Part shown: positions 2,461-18,989 of the stretch, piece by piece
Layout of the letters: each line of letters starts with the position of its first letter
Numbering within the stretch: position 1 is the stretch's first letter
Origin: a virus
Length of the DNA: 26,829 bases
IMG/VR virus record: IMGVR_UViG_3300020183_005528
Coordinates: 1 to 26,829 of that record
Strand: one strand, 5' to 3'
Program-made: the position numbers and the translations under genes
The notes under the pieces: model-generated
What the model saw: only the letters and a program-made list of their open reading frames with translations
Database searches by the model: none
Told to the model about the DNA's origin: nothing

Positions 2461-3009
2461 TCAAGCTACATTGTTTAGCGCGCAAAGTGTTTCAAACATT
2501 ACACGATTAGCGCGGCCGCCCATTGTCACAGTAAATGTAGCAGCTGATATATTTGAACCTTGTGCTGTTACAGTGGGTGTTGTTGTAAAGTTTGAACCTT
2601 GACTTACCAAAGTTACAGTTGAAATAACATTTTGAACTGGTGTTCCTATTGTTCTTGTAAATGATGCGTTTGCGCCAGAGCCGCCACCACCAGTAAATAC
2701 AAGAAATCCATTTGCATTATAACCAGTACCACCACTGGAAATAGCAATATCAGAAACAAATCCTGTTCCTTGTTTTCTCAAATTCCAACCGGTATGTGCT
2801 GCTTTGCCAAGACCACCACCATTTGCCAATTGAGTATTAGCTACTTCAACAGTATTTACACCTTCAATACCAAGTTGAACACCTGTAACAAACGCTCCAG
2901 TTGTTGTATTTTGATACGCTGTAAACCCATTTGCAGATGAACCTAGACCACTAAGTACTGACCATTTTGGTGCATTTGCTGAATTATCTATTGCTCCCCA
3001 TAGGGCCAT
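2461..3009 (-). CDS. Gly/Thr-rich virion structural protein
   Basis: 182 residues starting MALWGAIDNSANAPKW, an opening I recognise from small structural proteins repeated through marine T4-like phage genomes. The body is rich in Gly, Thr, Asn and Ser with short beta-like repeats (ISSGGTGYNANGF; TVTLVSQGSNFTTTPTVT), as in tail, fibre or decoration proteins, and it ends in RVMFETLCALNNVA. It lacks a signal peptide. It has a strong ribosome site (AAGGAG) and its own TATAAATA late promoter, both of which fit an abundant late virion component. The exact place in the particle cannot be told from sequence. Confidence 0.8.
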   Translation of the reverse strand: MALWGAIDNSANAPKWSVLSGLGSSANGFTAYQNTTTGAFVTGVQLGIEGVNTVEVANTQLANGGGLGKAAHTGWNLRKQGTGFVSDIAISSGGTGYNANGFLVFTGGGGSGANASFTRTIGTPVQNVISTVTLVSQGSNFTTTPTVTAQGSNISAATFTVTMGGRANRVMFETLCALNNVA

Positions 3010-3037: not shown

Positions 3038-3045
3038 TATTTATA
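3038..3045 (-). promoter_or_regulatory. T4-type late promoter TATAAATA
   Basis: The minus strand reads TATAAATA, the exact T4 late promoter -10 box. It lies in the 37-base gap between two genes, 28 bases before the ATG at 3009, with the AAGGAG ribosome site in between. T4-type late promoters need no -35 box and are read by the phage late sigma factor and sliding clamp. The position makes a chance match unlikely. Confidence 0.8.
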
Positions 3046-3046
3046 A

Positions 3047-4690
3047 TTAGGTTGTTGTTGACTTTATACCAATACCCTCTTTGGTTGGCCCTGATGGATT
3101 CATATTTATAGAATCAGCCTCTTGACCCGTCATTGTTTCATCGTTTTCTTTCGTGTTTTTCATGGCCATCTTTGTTGCTGTGGCATACATTACTTCTTTT
3201 CCTCTTTTTTTGCCGTAACGTTTTTCAAAATCAGCCAATTTATCTTTTAGTTTCAAGACAATCTTTTCACGCTTTTCTTCTTCAGCATCAGTCATTTTGC
3301 GCTCATTGACTTCTTCACCAAGACGAACCTCAATAGGTTTGCGTTCCGTAGGTTCTTTGGCATCCATTTTCTGTTGTTTTGAATGTGATGGATTACCTAA
3401 CGTTTTCTTGATTGCTTCCGGACGACCGGAGGCAACATCACTTAGAGATGCACCGGGTTTACCAATTCTAACATAACCTTCCGAAACTTTTTTCTCTTCG
3501 TTTTGATGAAACGTTCTAACTTGCTTTACTGTTTCAATTGGAATTTCTTTAAGATTTTTGTTGTTTGTTTGTTTTTCTGGCTCGACAAGCATTTTTTTTC
3601 CATCTGTTTTTGGCTGATAAGTATTTTTACTTGTGCCAGAGATTTCGTCATAGTGTTTCATCATGTGATCATGAGACTTTGTAATTTCACTTTGAATCTT
3701 CTCTTTTTGAAATGGCTTTAGTCCACCCTGATCAGTTGGAAGTTCATAATGTTTAACAATTGCACGGGCAACGTCTCTGGACATAGGATGCTTTTCGCCA
3801 TTATCGTATTCAAAATGACCACCTTTCATTGATAGAGCAATTCTTCTTAGTCTATCAATTGGATGCTTGCGAGCTGATTCTTCTGGATCTTCCGGCTCTG
3901 TTTTTGGTGGAGGATTTGCAACTGGCTTTTTTGTGTCCGGCTTTTGTTTTGCCTTTAGTGCAGCTTTAGCATCACGAATTTTTGCTTTTAGCTCATCACG
4001 ACGACGCTTTGCTTCAGGTGATAGTGCTTCATCAATAGATTTTGTTGCAACATCTTTTGACATTGTTGTTGGATATTCTTTTCCACCAAATTCAAAATGA
4101 GATTTACCCGCCTTTGATGCTGCGGCAGCTGCCATATGAAATGCTGTACGCTCTTTCATTGACATACCCTTTGGCATGACTTCTTCATCAACTTCTTCTT
4201 TCATTGGAGAAGCAGCTGCTTTATGTGGCATTGAACTACCGCCGTAGTTTCTTTCCTTAGGTGGTTCCTTGATCATTGAATATGATGGATTATATGGTGT
4301 CTTTGGTGTTATCTTACCTGCTTTTACACCAAATGATGGTTTTTGTGCAGTCGTAGTTGTTGGTTTATTTGCAGGTTCTTTTGCACGAACTTTTGCATCA
4401 CCAGATAGCTTTTGACCTGCAGTAGAAAATCCTTTTTGTCTTTTCTGCAACTCAGGTCCTACTACGTTAGGATTTCTCATGCGTTCGCGACTTTTTTCTC
4501 TATACGCTTGAAGTGCAGCTGGACTCAATTCATTTAGTTCTTCTTCAGAAAGTTCCAAATGATTGATGTTTGGCTGTTCGTTTGAAGCTTCATCAATCTT
4601 TTTTGATTCTTCAACGATAGGCTCTTTCAATATCTTTTCAGTAATCTCTACTAGACTTTCAGGTAGATTGTTGAACTTCTTCGTGAACAT
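3047..4690 (-). CDS. Long Lys/Glu-rich disordered phage protein with duplicated motif
   Basis: 547 residues, strongly charged and Pro/Lys/Glu-rich, probably largely disordered with helical parts. Residues 197-222 (SHFEFGGKEYPTTMSKDVAT) and 291-315 (GHFEYDNGEKHPMSRDVARA) are two versions of one motif. Near the C-terminus, ADFEKRYGKKRGKEVMYATA followed by TKMAMK (487-511) is a tail I recognise in many marine T4-like phage proteins. The N-terminal 30 residues contain several L-x-E sites (LPE, LVE) that a T4-type prohead protease could cut. There are no enzyme motifs. It has an ATG with AAGGA 8-9 bases upstream. A role as an internal or scaffold-like head protein is plausible but inferred only. 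Confidence 0.75.
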   Translation of the reverse strand: MFTKKFNNLPESLVEITEKILKEPIVEESKKIDEASNEQPNINHLELSEEELNELSPAALQAYREKSRERMRNPNVVGPELQKRQKGFSTAGQKLSGDAKVRAKEPANKPTTTTAQKPSFGVKAGKITPKTPYNPSYSMIKEPPKERNYGGSSMPHKAAASPMKEEVDEEVMPKGMSMKERTAFHMAAAAASKAGKSHFEFGGKEYPTTMSKDVATKSIDEALSPEAKRRRDELKAKIRDAKAALKAKQKPDTKKPVANPPPKTEPEDPEESARKHPIDRLRRIALSMKGGHFEYDNGEKHPMSRDVARAIVKHYELPTDQGGLKPFQKEKIQSEITKSHDHMMKHYDEISGTSKNTYQPKTDGKKMLVEPEKQTNNKNLKEIPIETVKQVRTFHQNEEKKVSEGYVRIGKPGASLSDVASGRPEAIKKTLGNPSHSKQQKMDAKEPTERKPIEVRLGEEVNERKMTDAEEEKREKIVLKLKDKLADFEKRYGKKRGKEVMYATATKMAMKNTKENDETMTGQEADSINMNPSGPTKEGIGIKSTTT

Positions 4691-4934: not shown

Positions 4935-7421
4935 TTACCATGCCTTACACGACCAATAGCGCGCCTTCCATCTTGGACCCGGATCTACATCACAACGATG
5001 CCTTGCTCTAAATGACTTTCTACGAGCCGGAATATTTTTCTTAATTGTCATGTTAGGATCACCAAAGTTTACTTTTACAATACGACCCGACGGACCTTTT
5101 ACATAAACTTTTGATTTTTTAACATCTCCAGGCATTGGTTTACCAAGAGGAACTTTTCTTCCCTGATATTCAGCCTCATCAATGGGATTTGTTTCCTCAT
5201 CCCACTGCAATGTCTCAATTAGTTCATCTTCCTCACAATGAAATGTCACTTCGTCCTCGTTAACTTTCTGCATTTTTACTTTTTTTTTATCCTCACCAAA
5301 TGCTTGCTTTGCATAACCTGTTGGTGGTTGACCTAATTCTGGCCCACCAATAGACAAATTAAAAGGCCTTGTTTCAGAAAGATCTTCCGATTCTTCTAAC
5401 TTTTGTCTAAATGAATAGAATGATGTCTTTGCATTAACCATACGATGTGCAGCTTCAATTAATTTTTCTTCCGCCGCATCACCATAACGCTCAATAAAAT
5501 TCTTTTGCGTAAATTCTTTTAATGCCCACGCACGAATAGAATCATTTTTTGGCAATTTTTCCTCTTGAACACTAATACTATACGCACCACCAATTCCACC
5601 TACGGCAGCCGGCGCTCCGGAAAGTCTTGAGTTATAATCTGCACCTGCATAATCTTCTTTCTTATCTTTTTTACTCTTGACTTTATTTACTTCAGTATAA
5701 CCGGGTTCACCTGGTGTCATTTTTTGTGCCGTTATTCGCGCGGTATCAGTTCCCAATAGATTTGATTCAATATTTGTATCAAGGGCATGAACATTTTCAT
5801 TTAGAAATGTTTCAAATTGTTTATCAATGTTTTCATTATGTACTGGAACTTTATCAAAATCATCAATATGAGGAACGTATCCCGCATGTCCGACGTAATC
5901 AGTAGAAACATTTTCATTCTTTTGCTTCTTTTTCTTTCCTTGACCACTCAAGTCCGAATCAGCACCATAATATGTTCCTTTACCTTTGGTAATATACGAA
6001 TTGACACGAGCCATACCCCATTGCTGCGGTGTGGTTCCAGGTCGATGACCTGTTCTCCATGCTGCCATTCCCCTATTATACACCTTTCTCAAAGTGCCTA
6101 TAGAAATACCAGATTTTGCTGCCTTTGCTGCAAGACCTTTTGCTGCTTCCTCATTCATGGGTTCGTTCCTTAAAAGATTTTCAATTTGTGAATTATTTAT
6201 TTGTTCTTCACCGTACATTCGCCTGTATTTTAAGGTATGTTTTGATGGTTTTGTTTTTGCTCCGGCATCACCTGGTGCAGGTTCATATGCCGATGAATCT
6301 GAAGGATCTTTTGCACTTTGTGTTCTAAAGTGTGAGTATCGTTTTTCTTTAGTTGATTTTTCAAGTCCAGCATAATATTTACCTGGCGTTGTATTTTTTT
6401 TATCTTTGAGATCCTTGTCTTGAGCTGATCTTTTAGAATGTCCTGCTTGTTCTTGTTTATCTTTTGGTGCATCCGCAACCCCACCAAAGAAATAATCAGG
6501 GGCATTAGTGGCAAGATGACCAACGGCTTCAACAAGAGAAAAGTCGCCATATTGTGACGACTTCATCATGCCTGTAGCAAGAACATTGTATACTATTGAA
6601 TTTTCGCGCAGAGATAAAACTTTACCAATCTCACCTAAATCATTTTCAATAAGTGTCCCAACCTTTATCATGGTTTCATCAATACCAGAGACAAACTTTG
6701 TGTCTAATTTATTCTCTTCGGGAACACAATTTGGAACCATTCGCTTCCCTTTCTTTTTTAAACCAACCGCTTTGTATCCATCCCAGCAAGCCTCATCCAT
6801 TTCTTCATGAAGTCCCATGCCTTTGCGTGTATCATTAAATAATTCCCTTGCATGTTCATCATGTACGTGTTTAGGAACACCTTTACGAAATTCATCAAAA
6901 TTATTGTTCTTTGCATGTTCGCGCATCTTGGATGCTGACATACCTTCAACACCCTCGGCATCAGGATCTCTTGCACCAGCTGATACTACTGAAATTTTCT
7001 TGAAATTGAATAATGCACCTTCGTGTGTTCCATTATATCTTTTTAATGTATCATGAAATTCCTTGACACGATCTTGACCAGCAACCATGATAAGATGTTC
7101 GTGACCAGCTTGATGCAGGCGTTTTGCATGTGCAATAAAACTTGGATGTTCTTTACTTGATGCAACTATATTTGTGCCGGGAAAATATCTTTTTGCGTGT
7201 TTTAGTTTTTGTTCTTGCGATAATGGATTCTTTTTTGCATCTTGTGAATGAGAAACTATGACTTCGTGATGAGCATTGTGTTGATCTGCCAATTGTTTAA
7301 CTCTGTTTACAAGTTTTTGATGGCCAACAGTTGGGGGATTCATGCGCCCAAATGCCATGACAACAGTCTTTAAAGCTTTCTTTTGCGCTTCAATAATAAA
7401 CGATTTATAGTCTTTCATCAT
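4935..7421 (-). CDS. Large CTS-bearing protein with N-terminal nucleotidyltransferase (NadM/cytidylyltransferase-like) domain
   Basis: 828 residues. After the leader MMKDYKSFIIE (cleavage after E11 predicted) comes a nucleotidyltransferase domain: VVMAFGRMNPPTVGHQKLVN (20-39) holds the TxGH form of the (H/T)xGH motif (T31-H34), and GMSASKMREHA (160-170) fits the C-terminal ISSTxxR-type loop. Such enzymes transfer AMP or CMP to a phosphate substrate, and NMN adenylyltransferases look like this. The remaining 600 residues are charged and repetitive with short ordered pieces (DEACWDGYKAVGLKKKGKR; ALKEFTQKNFIERYGD), closing with a Cys/Trp-rich end (HRCDVDPG, ARYWSCKAW). Two ATGs lie at 7421 and 7418; the second gives MKDYKSF, closer to T4 leaders. 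The substrate is unproven. Confidence 0.82.
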   Translation of the reverse strand: MMKDYKSFIIEAQKKALKTVVMAFGRMNPPTVGHQKLVNRVKQLADQHNAHHEVIVSHSQDAKKNPLSQEQKLKHAKRYFPGTNIVASSKEHPSFIAHAKRLHQAGHEHLIMVAGQDRVKEFHDTLKRYNGTHEGALFNFKKISVVSAGARDPDAEGVEGMSASKMREHAKNNNFDEFRKGVPKHVHDEHARELFNDTRKGMGLHEEMDEACWDGYKAVGLKKKGKRMVPNCVPEENKLDTKFVSGIDETMIKVGTLIENDLGEIGKVLSLRENSIVYNVLATGMMKSSQYGDFSLVEAVGHLATNAPDYFFGGVADAPKDKQEQAGHSKRSAQDKDLKDKKNTTPGKYYAGLEKSTKEKRYSHFRTQSAKDPSDSSAYEPAPGDAGAKTKPSKHTLKYRRMYGEEQINNSQIENLLRNEPMNEEAAKGLAAKAAKSGISIGTLRKVYNRGMAAWRTGHRPGTTPQQWGMARVNSYITKGKGTYYGADSDLSGQGKKKKQKNENVSTDYVGHAGYVPHIDDFDKVPVHNENIDKQFETFLNENVHALDTNIESNLLGTDTARITAQKMTPGEPGYTEVNKVKSKKDKKEDYAGADYNSRLSGAPAAVGGIGGAYSISVQEEKLPKNDSIRAWALKEFTQKNFIERYGDAAEEKLIEAAHRMVNAKTSFYSFRQKLEESEDLSETRPFNLSIGGPELGQPPTGYAKQAFGEDKKKVKMQKVNEDEVTFHCEEDELIETLQWDEETNPIDEAEYQGRKVPLGKPMPGDVKKSKVYVKGPSGRIVKVNFGDPNMTIKKNIPARRKSFRARHRCDVDPGPRWKARYWSCKAW

Positions 7422-7445
7422 GCACCAATATGTTGTGGTATGTAA

Positions 7446-7459
7446 TATTTATCTAAATA
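7446..7459. promoter_or_regulatory. Divergent late-promoter-like palindrome
   Basis: The 64-base gap between the minus gene (start 7421) and csgF (start 7486) contains TATTTATCTAAATA: TATTTA and its complement TAAATA separated by TC. On the minus strand it reads GATAAATA, fitting the NATAAATA late consensus, 25 bases from the ATG. On the plus strand it reads TCTAAATA, one base off consensus, 26 bases before the csgF ATG. One element could therefore serve both directions. The plus-strand half is the weaker claim. Confidence 0.6.
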
Positions 7460-7485
7460 ATACTTGTAAGAAAGGACTCAATATC

Positions 7486-7929
7486 ATGAGAAAATTACCT
7501 TTCTTAGTTATGTTTTTGTTGATTTCAAATAATATTTGGGCTGATAGCCTACAATTTGGCTTCAAAAATCCTTCTTTTAGCGGTATTGGATATTCTTCGC
7601 ATGTTTTAACCATTGAGACAATGGAATATCAAAGACGCGAAAAACTAAAAGCCGAAGAAGAAGCAAAAAAAGCAGCCGAGCAAAGAAAGATAGATAACTC
7701 AAATCTATCCAAGTTTCTATTGAATGTTGAGGGTAGAATATACGCTCAACTAAGCAAACAACTTGTTGATACAATGTTTGGTGAAAACGCAAGCAACACA
7801 GGAACCGTTGTCATTGAGGGTAATACAATATCTTTTGTAAAAACAGCCAGTGCTGTTACATTATCAATAGTTCAATCCAATGGCAACACAACAACCGTTG
7901 AAGTTCCTATAGGTGAGTTTAAATTTTAA
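7486..7929 (+). CDS. csgF: CsgF-like curli assembly protein
   Basis: 147 residues. A signal peptide (1-19, ending NNIWA) is followed by DSLQFGFKNPSFSGIGYSSH, matching the CsgF mature N-terminus (F-x-F-x-NP-x-F-x-G), the part that in E. coli CsgF enters the CsgG channel. A helical neck (residues 46-70, Lys/Glu/Ala-rich) and a C-terminal beta segment ending TTTVEVPIGEFKF also follow the CsgF layout. Length is close to E. coli CsgF (138). The ATG at 7486 was chosen because it begins the signal peptide and has AAAGGA ten bases upstream; an in-frame upstream extension has neither. The stop overlaps csgG as TAATG. In bacteria CsgF is exported to the outer surface and caps the CsgG pore. A phage copy is unusual. 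Confidence 0.9.
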   Translation: MRKLPFLVMFLLISNNIWADSLQFGFKNPSFSGIGYSSHVLTIETMEYQRREKLKAEEEAKKAAEQRKIDNSNLSKFLLNVEGRIYAQLSKQLVDTMFGENASNTGTVVIEGNTISFVKTASAVTLSIVQSNGNTTTVEVPIGEFKF

Positions 7930-8708
7930 TGTATAAAGCACCATTGATGCTTTTATTATTACTTGTTGGATGTGCTTACCCCATGCAAACATCTCAACCT
8001 GAAATAATGCCTTCACAGGCACAAAGCATGTTTGAAATGATTGAAGAAATTGATGGACAACCATTAATTGTCGCTGTTTACTCATATATGGATAAAACTG
8101 GACAAAGAAAACCAAGTGAAAATGTTGCACATCTAAGCACAGCAATAACACAAGGTGCAGAAGCATGGTTGATTAAAGCCATGCAAAATGTAGGTAAAGG
8201 TAAATGGTTTCGTGTTGTTGAACGTGTAGGTCTTGATAATCTAATTAAAGAAAGACAATTAATTCGTACTGCACGCGAGGCTTTTGAAGGAGAAAAAGCA
8301 AAAGAATTACGCCCACTATTATTTGCTGGATTAATAGCTGAAGGTGGCGTAATAAGTTATGATACAAATATTTCTTCTGGTGGTGTTGGTGCAAGATATC
8401 TTGGTGTTGGTGCATCAACACAATATAGACAAGATATTGTTACTGTATTTCTTCGCTTAGTCTCTGTACAAACCGGTGAAGTATTGACAACAGTGGCAGT
8501 GCAAAAAACAATATTAAGCGTAAAAACATCAGTAGACGTATTAAAATTTCTTGACATGGGAACAAAAATAGTTGAATTTGAAACAGGAATTGCAGTAAAT
8601 GAGCCAACAAATTATGCTGTAAAAGTAGCAATAGAACAAAGCGTAATAGAAACCATCAAAGAAGGCGAAAGAAAAGGTTTTTGGAAAAGAAAGGAAGGAA
8701 ACAAATGA
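7929..8708 (+). CDS. csgG: CsgG-like curli secretion channel lipoprotein
   Basis: 259 residues (E. coli CsgG 277). A lipoprotein signal ends in LLLVGC with the lipidated Cys at 15. Family hallmarks are in order: VAVYSYMDKTGQRKP (48-62), a conserved domain with LIKERQLIRTA, and the transmembrane hairpin region VISYDTNISSGGVGARYLGV (141-160), TQYRQDIVTVFLRLVSVQTG and TILSVKTSVDVLKFLD. CsgG forms a nonameric outer-membrane pore exporting unfolded curli subunits. The loop that forms the E. coli constriction (Y51, N55, F56, mature numbering) is replaced here by SENVAHL and is one residue longer, so pore selectivity may differ. The gene overlaps csgF by one base and the curlin gene by four. No CsgE is present in the window. 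Confidence 0.93.
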   Translation: MYKAPLMLLLLLVGCAYPMQTSQPEIMPSQAQSMFEMIEEIDGQPLIVAVYSYMDKTGQRKPSENVAHLSTAITQGAEAWLIKAMQNVGKGKWFRVVERVGLDNLIKERQLIRTAREAFEGEKAKELRPLLFAGLIAEGGVISYDTNISSGGVGARYLGVGASTQYRQDIVTVFLRLVSVQTGEVLTTVAVQKTILSVKTSVDVLKFLDMGTKIVEFETGIAVNEPTNYAVKVAIEQSVIETIKEGERKGFWKRKEGNK

Positions 8709-9373
8709 AAAAACTATGGGCAACATTGTTCATGGTTTTGTTATTCAACGTAGCCAATGCAACGGATAATAAAATTTATATTGATCAAGCAGGAGATGCG
8801 TTAACATTAACAATCACTCAACAAAATGGCGCATTGAATCAAATCAATTCATCATTGACACCTGCAACAATAACAGGCGACAATAATGACATCACCATCA
8901 TGCAAAATGGCGCAGTGAATACATTAAATTTTGAATTGAATGGTAATGGAAATTTAGTTGACCTGAAGCAAGAAGGTAATACTAATACCATGGAATTTAA
9001 TTGTAATGCTGGTAATACAGATGCATGTGCATCAGTAGACGCCAAGTTTTATAATATAGGTGATAACAATACAACTAATATTACGATCAAGAAAAATAGT
9101 GTAACAATTAATGCAACCGTAACAGGCGATAGCAATCAAACAACAGTACTCATGAATTCAACCGGTGGTTCATTGATAATGAACGTAAACGGAGATTTAA
9201 ATACAACCAGCTTTAGTCAATCTGGTGCACCTGTAGTGCCACATACGGCAACAATTACACATACCGGTAATAGTGGAGCCTTTACATATTCACAATCCGG
9301 CAGCATAAAAAAGACCATGAATGTGACAACAAATGGTAATAATCTTACTACTACTATTACTCAGTCTGACTGA
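8705..9373 (+). CDS. Curlin-like secreted repeat protein (CsgA/CsgB type)
   Basis: 222 residues. A signal peptide (1-19, ending NVANA) is followed by curlin-like units of x-I-x-Q-x-G-x-x-N type: NKIYIDQAGDALTL, TITQQNGALNQI, ITIMQNGAVNTL, LKQEGNTNTM, TSFSQSGA and FTYSQSGSIK. This Asn/Thr/Gln/Gly strand-turn pattern is that of curli amyloid subunits, though the repeats are degenerate. An insert near residue 99-109 carries two cysteines (C100, C108), unusual for curlins. The ATG overlaps the csgG stop (ATGA) and has a strong AAGGAAGGAAA ribosome site, the best in the operon, fitting a high-yield cargo. It is the probable substrate of the neighbouring CsgG/CsgF channel; whether it nucleates (CsgB) or elongates (CsgA) cannot be told. 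Confidence 0.85.
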   Translation: MKKLWATLFMVLLFNVANATDNKIYIDQAGDALTLTITQQNGALNQINSSLTPATITGDNNDITIMQNGAVNTLNFELNGNGNLVDLKQEGNTNTMEFNCNAGNTDACASVDAKFYNIGDNNTTNITIKKNSVTINATVTGDSNQTTVLMNSTGGSLIMNVNGDLNTTSFSQSGAPVVPHTATITHTGNSGAFTYSQSGSIKKTMNVTTNGNNLTTTITQSD

Positions 9374-10364
9374 AGCTAAAGCCAATCCAATTGGTGAATT
9401 TATTCAACTGACGGGCCCTGCACAAGTAGATAAAAAAACGGGCTCGTCAGTTGATGCATCTTTAGGATCTAAAATAGAGTCTTTAGATACAATTCGCACA
9501 TCTCGTGCAAGAGCAAATATTAAATTTAAAGATAATACACAAGTTGCAATTACAGAAAATAGTAAACTTGTAATAGATGAATATGTTTATGACCCAAATC
9601 GCGGTACAGGTAAGATGTCAATGAAAATTGCTCTTGGCACTGTTAGATATGCGTCTGGAACAATTGCAAAAAATAACAACGAAAATATAAACATTCAAAC
9701 TCCAGTTGCAACTGTTGGTGTTCGCGGCACGTCATTTAGTATGACCGTAGATGAGATAGGACAAAGTTTAATCATTTTATTACCCAATCGTGATGGCACA
9801 ATTGGTGAAATACGAGTTGAATCTGATGCTGGTCAAGTTATATTAAACAAAGCTTTTCAGTCTACTTACGTCACATCAAATGAGGGAAAACCAACACAAC
9901 CAACAATACTTAATATTCTTGATAGCCAAATTAATAATTTATTAATTGTATCAAAACCAGAAAAATTAAAAGAAAATAACGAACAAAGTAAGAATGATCC
10001 ATTAAGAATAGATCTTCTTGAATTTAAAGAACTTGATAAAACAGATTTGGATAAAGATAATCTTCAATTTAGTGATCTTGACATTAATCTATTAGATGTA
10101 GACTTATTACAAAATGTTTTAAATGAGTATGATGTATCTTCCATAGGAAAAGTTGCGGGAATCAATCAATCTACTCAAATATATACTATATTCACCGCTA
10201 CAAAAGTAAGACTTGTTCGTAATGTGGAAAATACAGTTCAAATGGAAATAGAGAAAGATAAAAACTACAATATGACTATAACACAAGGAGATAGAACCGT
10301 ATCATTTGGTGTAAACGATTCTGATTCTCCTTATGCAAATAAAATAAGGATAATACAAAAATGA
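9333..10364 (+). CDS. Secreted FecR-domain protein
   Basis: 343 residues. The first 17 (MVIILLLLLLSLTEAKA) form a signal peptide, so the protein is periplasmic or beyond. Residues about 20-135 form a FecR domain: GEFIQLTGPAQVD, DTIRTSRARANIKF, then the hallmark NIQTPVATVGVRGTSF (120-135). The C-terminal half has an Asp/Leu-rich stretch (225-262) and a final beta-like part (YNMTITQGDRTVSFG). There is no membrane anchor or sigma-factor-binding N-terminus, so it is not a classical FecR anti-sigma factor. The start lies inside the curlin gene (41-base overlap, +1 frame); no later ATG keeps the signal peptide, so the start is forced. Its stop overlaps the cyclase ATG (ATGA). FecR proteins paired with CHASE2 cyclases are known to me from bacteria, so a sensory partnership is inferred. 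Confidence 0.85.
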   Translation: MVIILLLLLLSLTEAKANPIGEFIQLTGPAQVDKKTGSSVDASLGSKIESLDTIRTSRARANIKFKDNTQVAITENSKLVIDEYVYDPNRGTGKMSMKIALGTVRYASGTIAKNNNENINIQTPVATVGVRGTSFSMTVDEIGQSLIILLPNRDGTIGEIRVESDAGQVILNKAFQSTYVTSNEGKPTQPTILNILDSQINNLLIVSKPEKLKENNEQSKNDPLRIDLLEFKELDKTDLDKDNLQFSDLDINLLDVDLLQNVLNEYDVSSIGKVAGINQSTQIYTIFTATKVRLVRNVENTVQMEIEKDKNYNMTITQGDRTVSFGVNDSDSPYANKIRIIQK

Positions 10365-12412
10365 ACTTCTTTACATCTTGGAAAATCGTCGTTATTGTTC
10401 TACTTGGTTTGATTGCATTAAGATTCCAAGATGGATGGTTAGTTGAAACAGCACGACTAAAAACATTTGATTATTATCAAGTATCAAAGCAAAGAACATC
10501 AAGCGAACAAATCTCAATCATAGAAATTACGGACGACGATATAGAAAACCAAGGTCAATGGCCATGGCCTCGCGATAAAGTTGCAATGATTATTGAAATG
10601 ATGAAATCATTTAATCCTGCAATGATTGTCATGCCAATAATATTTTCAGAGCCAGATCGTTTTGGAAAAGATCAAGATCTTGCAAACGCTCTTGATGGTG
10701 TTGTAATATCACAGGCACCATCAAACAAAGCATCAAAAGTTGAAGGTTCACCCCGCGGAATTGCAGTTGTGGGTCAACGATCAGATGGCTGGCTACAAAG
10801 ATTTTTAGGTATTGTTCGTCCACTAAAGATATTTGAAGATAATTCTGCTGGTGTTGGTGTTCTTGCCGCATCTGGTGAAATTGATGGCGTTGTTCGTCGC
10901 ATGCCAATGGTTGTGCAAATAGACAAAGAACTATATCCAACACTTTCTTTGGAAGTCATTCGTGCATTAACAGGTGATCCAAGTTACCAAATGAAGGTTG
11001 GATTCAATGGTGTTGAATCTGTCCGCATTCCACAATTTGAAACAATTCAAACGGATTCAAATGGTCGTGTATGGATAAAGTATAATAAAGAATTTGATCG
11101 TCATTCAATCTATCGCATGGATGATATAGAAAATCGTGTTGTGATACTAACAATATCTGCTGAAGGATTGGCTACAAATGTTCCAACACCATATGGTCTA
11201 AAGAATATAGCTGAAGTACAAGCAGCAATGATTTCCACATTGATAAATGGTGACAGTCTTACACGGCTTGATTATGCAGATCTCATTGAATTGCTTACTT
11301 TGACTATGATAGGTTTATTGTTCATCACTCTTGTTCCAAGATTGAAGATTTGGCAAACCATGCCTTTTTATATGGTTTTGGCAGTCGGAATCGTTGGTTT
11401 CTGCTTCTATATGTATGAAATGAATATTCTGTTTGATTATTCATTTCCTTTATTTGCAATTACTTTAGTATTCTCTTGGCTAGTCTTCAATAACTTTGCA
11501 AGAGAGTTTAGACTAAAGCAACAAATCAAGAAACAGTTTCAATCATATCTTTCAAAAGCTCTTGTTGAGAAACTACAAAAGAATCCTGAATTGCTAAAAC
11601 TTGGTGGTGATAGTAAAGAACTATCAATCATGTTTACCGATGTTCGTGGATTTACAAGCATTAGCGAACACTACGGAGAAAATGTTCAAGGACTAACGCA
11701 AATTATGAATCGCTATATGACTGCGATGACAGCAAAGATTCTTGAGAATGAAGGCACGCTTGACAAATACATAGGTGATGCACAGATGGCATTTTGGAAT
11801 GCACCTCTTGATGATAAGCAACATGCCAAGAATGCAATAAAAACAGCTCTAAGCATGTTAGGAGATTTAGATGAATTTAACAGAAAAATTTCAGCTGAAG
11901 GCGTTCCTCCTTTCGGCATGGGTCTTGGTATTAATACTGGTGTGGTTGTTGTTGGAAATATGGGCAGCGATCAGCGTTTCGATTATACTTGCCTCGGTGA
12001 TGCTGTCAACCTTGCTAGTCGTCTTGAAGGACAATCGAAACCGTACGGAGTAAAGATTGTTGTTGGACCCAAAACAGCCGAATACATTGCAGATGAATAC
12101 TTTGTCGTTGAACTAGACACAATTGCTGTCAAAGGAAAGAAGCAAGGAGTGAACATTTATACTGTGCTTGGCACATCAAAAGAAATGGAGTTTCTAAACT
12201 ATATCCCATTTAGAGAAATTCATAATGAAATGCTTGATGACTATCGTACACAGAATTTTGCAAGAGCAATCAAGTCTTGTACAAATCTAAGAACCGCATT
12301 TGGCGGAAATATGAAGAATTATTATGAGATGATGCTGGAACGTTGTGAGGAATATGTTAAGAATCCACCACCAGCAGATTGGGATGGAGTATATAGAGCT
12401 ACATCAAAATGA
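10361..12412 (+). CDS. CHASE2 sensor / class III nucleotide cyclase, intact catalytic site
   Basis: 683 residues. An N-terminal membrane helix (6-22) precedes a periplasmic CHASE2 domain (about 25-300, with ISIIEITDDDIENQGQWPWP). Three membrane helices (about 308-326, 335-352, 358-378) and a short linker lead to a class III cyclase domain (about 415-605). Catalytic residues are all present by alignment to known cyclases: metal Asp D427 (FTDVRGFTS), K469 and metal D473 (DKYIGDAQMAFW), T543, N550 and R554 (YTCLGDAVNLASRLE). The Lys/Thr pair is typical of class IIIb adenylate cyclases, so cAMP is the likely product. The tail (DWDGVYRATSK) is the usual end of this bacterial family, so the protein looks full length. 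AAGGA precedes the ATG, which overlaps the FecR stop. It is the last gene of the operon. Confidence 0.93.
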   Translation: MNFFTSWKIVVIVLLGLIALRFQDGWLVETARLKTFDYYQVSKQRTSSEQISIIEITDDDIENQGQWPWPRDKVAMIIEMMKSFNPAMIVMPIIFSEPDRFGKDQDLANALDGVVISQAPSNKASKVEGSPRGIAVVGQRSDGWLQRFLGIVRPLKIFEDNSAGVGVLAASGEIDGVVRRMPMVVQIDKELYPTLSLEVIRALTGDPSYQMKVGFNGVESVRIPQFETIQTDSNGRVWIKYNKEFDRHSIYRMDDIENRVVILTISAEGLATNVPTPYGLKNIAEVQAAMISTLINGDSLTRLDYADLIELLTLTMIGLLFITLVPRLKIWQTMPFYMVLAVGIVGFCFYMYEMNILFDYSFPLFAITLVFSWLVFNNFAREFRLKQQIKKQFQSYLSKALVEKLQKNPELLKLGGDSKELSIMFTDVRGFTSISEHYGENVQGLTQIMNRYMTAMTAKILENEGTLDKYIGDAQMAFWNAPLDDKQHAKNAIKTALSMLGDLDEFNRKISAEGVPPFGMGLGINTGVVVVGNMGSDQRFDYTCLGDAVNLASRLEGQSKPYGVKIVVGPKTAEYIADEYFVVELDTIAVKGKKQGVNIYTVLGTSKEMEFLNYIPFREIHNEMLDDYRTQNFARAIKSCTNLRTAFGGNMKNYYEMMLERCEEYVKNPPPADWDGVYRATSK

Positions 12413-14953: not shown

Positions 14954-15238
14954 TCAGTCCTTTCTTGCGTCGTTTTTACCGTCAGCTCTTGCAAGTCTTT
15001 CGGTATCAGGTCTAACATGAAGTGCTGTTGAAATCAAAGTATCAATTCTCACGATGTCGTGATTCATCGTCTTGACGCGATTATCAAGAGCCATGATAAT
15101 ACCACTCAATCCTTTTACTGAACTTTGAACGCCGGCCAGAATAAACTTTAGCGTAAGAAAAACAAAGTATCCGCCTGCTATTGAAGATGCAATTGGAAAT
15201 CCAACTTCCGCCACCAGCTTGAAGAATTCTGCTTCCAT
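14954..15238 (-). CDS. Small membrane protein with helical tail, paralogue 2 (holin-like topology)
   Basis: 94 residues: a membrane helix (about 11-34, VGFPIASSIAGGYFVFLTLK), an amphipathic stretch with DNRVKTMNHDIVRIDTLIS, and a very charged tail (ERLARADGKNDARKD). It shares the GFPI...GG.Y.(I/V)F core and the (D/N)RV(R/K)..(D/N).D(L/I)(I/V)R pattern with its neighbour. It is the first gene of the minus-strand envelope block, and a weak late-promoter-like ACTAAATA lies about 32 bases before it. A two-component holin or spanin-like role is a guess from size and topology only. Confidence 0.75.
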   Translation of the reverse strand: MEAEFFKLVAEVGFPIASSIAGGYFVFLTLKFILAGVQSSVKGLSGIIMALDNRVKTMNHDIVRIDTLISTALHVRPDTERLARADGKNDARKD

Positions 15239-15269: not shown

Positions 15270-15277
15270 TATTTAGT
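15270..15277 (-). promoter_or_regulatory. Weak late-promoter-like ACTAAATA
   Basis: The minus strand reads ACTAAATA, one base from NATAAATA, in the 98-base gap between the nuclease gene and the membrane-protein pair and about 32 bases before the ATG at 15238. The same CTAAATA core occurs on the plus strand before csgF. It is a candidate for starting the minus-strand envelope block. Confidence 0.4.
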
Positions 15278-18779: not shown

Positions 18780-18989
18780 TTAGTCTTTGCTAGTAGCTAA
18801 CTTGTCTGCAATGGTGTAAAACATCTTGGCCGTATCTTCATTTCCCATGAATTGTACATACATTCTTTGAGCAACGGCCAGCAACGAACCATTCACAGCA
18901 AGAAACTCGTCTCTTGTTTTTGCATCCATCACCATCTTTTCAGCTTTTACCATCGTTTCTCGCATCAATTCTTCAATATTTTCTTCCAT
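18780..18989 (-). CDS. Small conserved helical phage protein, function unknown
   Basis: 69 residues, all helical by pattern: an acidic start (MEENIEELMRETMVKAEKMV), DAKTRDEFLAVNGSLLAVAQ in the middle and TAKMFYTIADKLATSK at the end. I recognise it as a recurrent small protein of marine T4-like phages but know no function. Its ATG lies within the last codons of the upstream HExxH gene (17-base overlap), so translation is coupled. It has no signal peptide or metal-binding motif. Confidence 0.75.
   Translation of the reverse strand: MEENIEELMRETMVKAEKMVMDAKTRDEFLAVNGSLLAVAQRMYVQFMGNEDTAKMFYTIADKLATSKD

Follow-up and report, generated by a model that had tools for sequence, protein, structure and literature searches.

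A short palindrome as a putative bidirectional late promoter between curli and nucleotidyltransferase genes of a marine T4-like phage

The late sigma factor system of bacteriophage T4 requires no -35 element. Its late box, TATAAATA, occupies positions -13 to -6, the first of which is loose; a CTAAATA late motif is known from Aeromonas phage Aeh1 (PMC1524935). There is no -35 conservation at late promoters (PMC2988020), and NATAAATA is the late motif of cyanomyophages S-PM2, Syn9, and their relatives (PMC2984593). In Escherichia coli, bidirectional promoters do not compete at basal activity, although competition appears upon activation by recruitment (PMC12825309).

Curli (type VIII secretion) operons with the gene set csgF-csgG-curlin repeat-FecR-cyclase, the same as that described here, are carried by pelagiphages and the OM43 phage Melnitz, but the available sections of these reports assign no promoter to csg (PMC7029224, PMC9004378, PMC9599517). 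In those sections, late-promoter prediction in pelagimyophages is described as unsuccessful (PMC7029224), and 15 late promoters are counted in Melnitz with csg not discussed (PMC9004378). A pelagiphage time-course transcriptome deals with HTVC022P and HTVC027P rather than HTVC008M and says nothing of the T8SS (PMC12753301). Here, we analyze a stretch of 26,829 nucleotides (the window) from a marine T4-like virus of bacteria, IMG/VR record IMGVR_UViG_3300020183_005528, in which such an operon faces a divergent gene across a short gap.

The divergent gap and its palindrome

The left gene (ATG at 7421, minus strand) and csgF (ATG at 7486, plus strand) are separated by 64 bases (7422 to 7485). Inspection of this gap confirms the perfect inverted repeat given in the preliminary description: TATTTATCTAAATA, TATTTA-TC-TAAATA, lies exactly at 7446 to 7459 with 6-base arms and a 2-base center and would form the central element of a two-way late promoter. 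Leftward, it reads as the putative late box GATAAATA (7453 to 7446, minus strand; positions -13 to -6 if the spacing is T4-like), which ends 24 nt from the start codon of the left gene. Rightward, it reads as TCTAAATA (7452 to 7459, plus strand), which ends 26 nt from the csgF start codon, and both distances agree with the earlier figure of about 25 bases. The two octamers share 2 bp, and these symmetric -10 elements are close enough for mutual exclusion of polymerase.

We propose, with a probability of about 0.8, that the palindrome acts in both directions as a compact T4-type late promoter. Its halves would each be a -10-like TAAATA box for the phage late sigma factor gp55, acting with gp33 and the gp45 clamp. 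Because a late promoter needs no -35 element, 8 bases per direction suffice and two boxes fit in 14 bases. RNA polymerase would bind in one orientation or the other and initiate about 6 nt past the box, giving a rightward start near 7465 for csgF-csgG-curlin repeat-FecR-cyclase and a leftward start near 7440 for the nucleotidyltransferase/DUF5824 gene and the block behind it, with both units expressed after replication begins. Simultaneous use by two polymerases would be impossible since the octamers overlap by two bases, and one direction could therefore dominate; the strength of each direction, like the start sites, is a prediction. Homologues of gp55, gp33, and gp45 are all present in a close relative of 196,948 bases (G001, the contig of locus L005), and they are known only from that relative because the window is a fragment that stops short of those genes.

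Plain palindromes with 6-base arms are frequent in the AT-rich window. A back-to-back pair of [AC]TAAATA boxes occurs once, whereas order-2 Markov sequence would give 0.0175; the probability of such a pair in a random 64-base stretch is ~0.0005. It is very unlikely that the two-way arrangement of boxes in the gap arose by chance.

Comparison of the gap in related phages, proposed earlier as a check, gives 63 of 64 identical positions between the window and G001, with identities of 72% for the left gene and 85% for csgF. About 1.5% of 64-base segments reach this level of conservation, although recombination could be a partial source of the high local identity. The entire palindrome is kept in L004 and L005/G001. 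In a more altered copy, L103 (CsgF 88% identical), the sequence is TATTTATCCTAAATA, in which both TAAATA arms are intact and one central base is added, and many positions of the gap other than the arms are changed. Other than L004, L005/G001, and L103, the searches made yielded no additional phage with a closely related gap. The csgF ribosome-binding site read from the sequence, AAAGGA (7471 to 7476, plus strand), is unchanged in G001 and L103.

An imperfect extension of the palindrome to 22 bases (GTAaTATTTATCTAAATAaTAC, 7442 to 7463) was considered as the functional unit and rejected, being absent from L103 and other copies. Its absence from L103 leaves the two TAAATA arms as the only apparently important parts.

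The rightward genes, identified with Pfam, include adjacent csgF and csgG, a curlin repeat, FecR, and a cyclase, as in other phage curli operons. The first gene of the proposed rightward transcript, csgF (7486 to 7929; CsgF, PF10614, E = 3e-16), is followed on the plus strand by csgG (7929 to 8708; PF03783, E = 5e-49), a curlin-repeat protein gene (8681 to 9373; PF07012, a weak match with E = 2e-4) whose true start is probably slightly downstream of 8681, a gene for a FecR-domain protein (9333 to 10364; PF04773), and, last in the unit, a gene for a protein with CHASE2 and adenylate/guanylate cyclase domains (10361 to 12412).

The leftward genes had been described as head genes, and this identification is not supported. 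The first of them (4935 to 7421, minus strand) encodes an 828-aa fusion of a cytidylyltransferase-like nucleotidyltransferase and DUF5824, and a comparison of the capsid, neck, tail, and other structural proteins of HTVC008M with the window yielded zero matches. Further left, matches to virion profiles are weak only. A 182-aa protein of this block matches a hypothetical protein of Caulobacter phage Cr30 along with weak virion profiles, and comparison of a 547-aa protein (3047 to 4690) with phage records, Pfam, and PHROGs gave no match. The block contains a second late box, a perfect TATAAATA (3038 to 3045, minus strand) that lies in a 37-base gap before the gene at 2461 to 3009 and is conserved in G001; another perfect minus-strand TATAAATA is found at 3103 to 3110, 65 bases from it. 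Homologues of the left gene situated away from csg (L099 to L101) have TATAAATA 8 nt before the ATG, so that the predicted lateness of this gene would be independent of curli.

Late-box variants and back-to-back pairs in related phages

Relative to the T4 consensus, each octamer of the window has one deviation, G at -13 on the left and C at -12 on the right. Every NNTAAATA in HTVC008M and G001 was scored for lying between genes, no more than 100 nt ahead of a gene of its own strand. [AC]TAAATA is so placed at 43 of 121 sites and [GT]TAAATA at 3 of 172 (Fisher P = 8e-16), counts that are approximate because the gene calls were mechanical. The C form is also enriched on its own (P = 7e-7), which matters because the rightward box TCTAAATA has C. 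In HTVC008M, structural genes are downstream of 14 of 19 such [AC]TAAATA sites (P = 0.0007, with the structural share of the genome estimated from annotation at 35%). Specifically, HTVC008M has GATAAATA before its tape measure gene and before gp48, and TCTAAATA is found before gp4 in HTVC008M and gp19 in G001. Together with CTAAATA in Aeh1 (PMC1524935), these sites indicate that the rightward box, previously listed as having one mismatch, is a genuine variant. Boxes in G001 precede gp2, gp18, gp19, gp22, and gp3, and many others precede genes of unknown function.

The A and C forms can replace each other, since a homologous site reads ACTAAATA in the window and CATAAATA in G001. In the window, this site is at 15270 to 15277, upstream of a gene (14954 to 15238) that is 95% identical in G001. 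[AC]TAAATA offers a usable late-promoter motif for pelagimyophages, where published prediction failed.

Across the collected loci, most back-to-back [AC]TAAATA pairs occupy divergent gaps, whereas the six [GT] control pairs are all within genes. Such pairs occur at csg heads in the lineage of the window, L103, L106, L107, L046/L069/L071, L055/L056, and L159/L171, with 0, 2, 3, or 4 nt between the TAAATA cores among relatives. L106 and L107 have TATTTATAAATA adjoining DUF6267, with a nucleotidyltransferase gene further along; in L046/L069/L071, the divergent partner across TATTTATAAATA is the CHASE2-cyclase itself. A pair is also present between gp2 and gp4 of HTVC008M (18922 to 18937), and T4 has TATTTATAAATA between the divergent late genes 26 and 51. 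The compact arrangement is common without being obligatory, since the two boxes of L105 are ~330 nt apart, still with one per direction, and L072 has a divergent cyclase with a rightward box only. Recurrence of the back-to-back layout in related phages and T4 makes it probable that the curli machinery of the phage is a late product of infection.

The cyclase gene, which usually ends the csg unit, is divergent from csg in L046 (625 to 2469), L069, and L071, with a common predicted two-way late promoter, an arrangement which suggests that coexpression of cyclase and curli is maintained there.

It is doubtful that the back-to-back promoter represents a selected coupling device through which csg and its divergent partner would be made together, late, and in a set ratio. 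In such a device, the output of csg would be tied to that of the partner because one polymerase excludes the other, and the partners would be the nucleotidyltransferase block, the DUF6267 block, or, in the L046/L069/L071 lineage, the CHASE2-cyclase. Since E. coli bidirectional promoters compete upon activation by recruitment only, the two outputs might conceivably be coupled (PMC12825309).

The same loci bear on whether one half of the palindrome, GATAAATA or TCTAAATA, might be the only working late promoter, with the other half a by-product of AT-rich symmetry. Each octamer is one base off TATAAATA, and the separated boxes of L105 and the single box of L072 are in keeping with this idea. However, both octamers precede structural genes elsewhere, L103 retains both arms despite its altered center, the split boxes of L105 still serve both directions, and the gap contains no alternative promoter-like site for either operon. 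A single working half is thus unlikely. Conservation, motif enrichment, and recurrence support the earlier proposal that one short palindrome provides two divergent late-type promoters.

Late boxes at phage curli loci

The csg loci collected from IMG/VR, HTVC008M, and Melnitz form 42 clusters at 85% CsgF identity, and a box lies upstream of csgF or its preamble in 38 of them. Where csgF has its own upstream gap, the box is within 120 nt in 17 of 19 clusters, compared with a mean of 2.1 and a maximum of 6 for resampled upstream sequence. Where csgF abuts or overlaps the upstream gene, a box is present within 1 kb upstream in 21 of 23 clusters (counted by eye), usually 530 to 650 nt from csgF and ahead of a two-gene preamble. 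An orientation control gave 30 sense A/C boxes versus 5 antisense A/C and 5 sense G/T. The four exceptions are L029 and three loci at contig edges (L036, L057, and L067). On the basis of these two sets of clusters, almost all csg units examined have a late box at their head, which is the broader and more useful result.

The preamble (L002, L020, L046, L049, L055, and others) consists of a gene for a 91- to 93-aa membrane-like protein and a second small ORF, which in many cases overlaps csgF. The N-terminal 70 residues of the membrane-like protein have no Pfam match.

In HTVC008M, TATAAATA (7549 to 7556) ends 5 nt before the csgF ATG. The same phage has 13 late boxes exactly 5 nt before an ATG (L092 to L094; examples, in record coordinates, are 7549, 11959 before the cyclase gene, 16020 and 18929 on the minus strand, 18930, 19443, 31119, 49747, and 75817), and this spacing is also seen at the csgF loci L016, L037, L041, and L070 and at the cyclase in L046/L069/L071. 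Combined with T4 spacing, it would make the A of the ATG the first base of the RNA, so that leaderless messages may be numerous among the late transcripts of HTVC008M.

A late box at almost every csg head argues against early takeover. Motif, conservation, and these boxes all favor the tie to the late program that had been proposed for curli in the window, with the timing itself predicted. Early csg expression from a host sigma-70 promoter within the gap or close to it, with the late boxes adding later expression only, is quite improbable: a weak sigma-70-like match exists at 7369 to 7397, and cyanomyophage genes with both early and late promoters have been reported (PMC2984593), but a sigma-70 scan gave 4 matches versus 4.7 expected in shuffled sequence and none in the gap, and the position of the HTVC008M box so close to csgF is also against it. 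Some other host sigma factor could also read the AT-rich gap.

In one subgroup, a conserved inverted repeat, GGTGTAAA-N4-TTTACACC, lies a few bases upstream of the late box before csgF (L009, 3474; L010, 3237; L011, 9389; L013, 9387; L018, 9475; L030, 9397; L034, 9392) and is a candidate operator or terminator. The presence of this different repeat next to late boxes in other csg loci, along with the imperfect symmetry reaching 22 bases in the window, could be taken to mean that the palindrome is itself bound as an operator by a dimeric DNA-binding regulator instead of acting as a promoter pair. We consider this very improbable, as a center of 0, 2, 3, or 4 nt would shift the half-sites, the extension is lost in L103, and the arms are an exact late-box match. 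A role as an RNA hairpin, whether in termination or in a leader, has next to no likelihood: a short stem is possible on paper, but the gap folds worse than shuffles (z = +1.39) and has neither a terminator-like site nor an Rfam match.

Comparison thus strongly supports the reading of the palindrome as a putative late promoter, which would put curli in the late program, a matter left open by the published promoter prediction for pelagimyophages. Lysis timing, aggregation ("sibling capture"), and molecule uptake have been proposed as functions for phage curli, and timing helps to separate the proposed functions of these phage-borne genes. Late production would fit roles at virion release or in a late change of the cell surface.

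Comparison with known late and bidirectional promoters

The boxes of the window resemble the cyanomyophage motif in their loose -13 position and in the same placement before structural genes, although that motif lacks the C at -12 and curli operons were not treated in that work (PMC2984593). The rightward box shares its C at -12 with the CTAAATA of Aeh1, where the C form dominates (PMC1524935), whereas a single genome here contains both A and C forms. As in the bidirectional promoters of E. coli, one short symmetric element would serve both strands, and the predicted start spacing of 25 bp in the window, like that of 23 bp for TATTTATAAATA, is near the E. coli 23-bp class; however, those promoters use host sigma-70 with possible -35 elements, while the window would use a phage late sigma factor with no -35 element (PMC12825309).

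The 50-bp gap between the divergent baseplate genes 26 and 51 of T4 is similar in having two consensus late boxes back to back. The window differs in combining GATAAATA and TCTAAATA around a 2-nt center and in facing auxiliary curli genes on one side and a nucleotidyltransferase gene on the other. The T4 pair is a precedent for the two-way late promoter predicted here.
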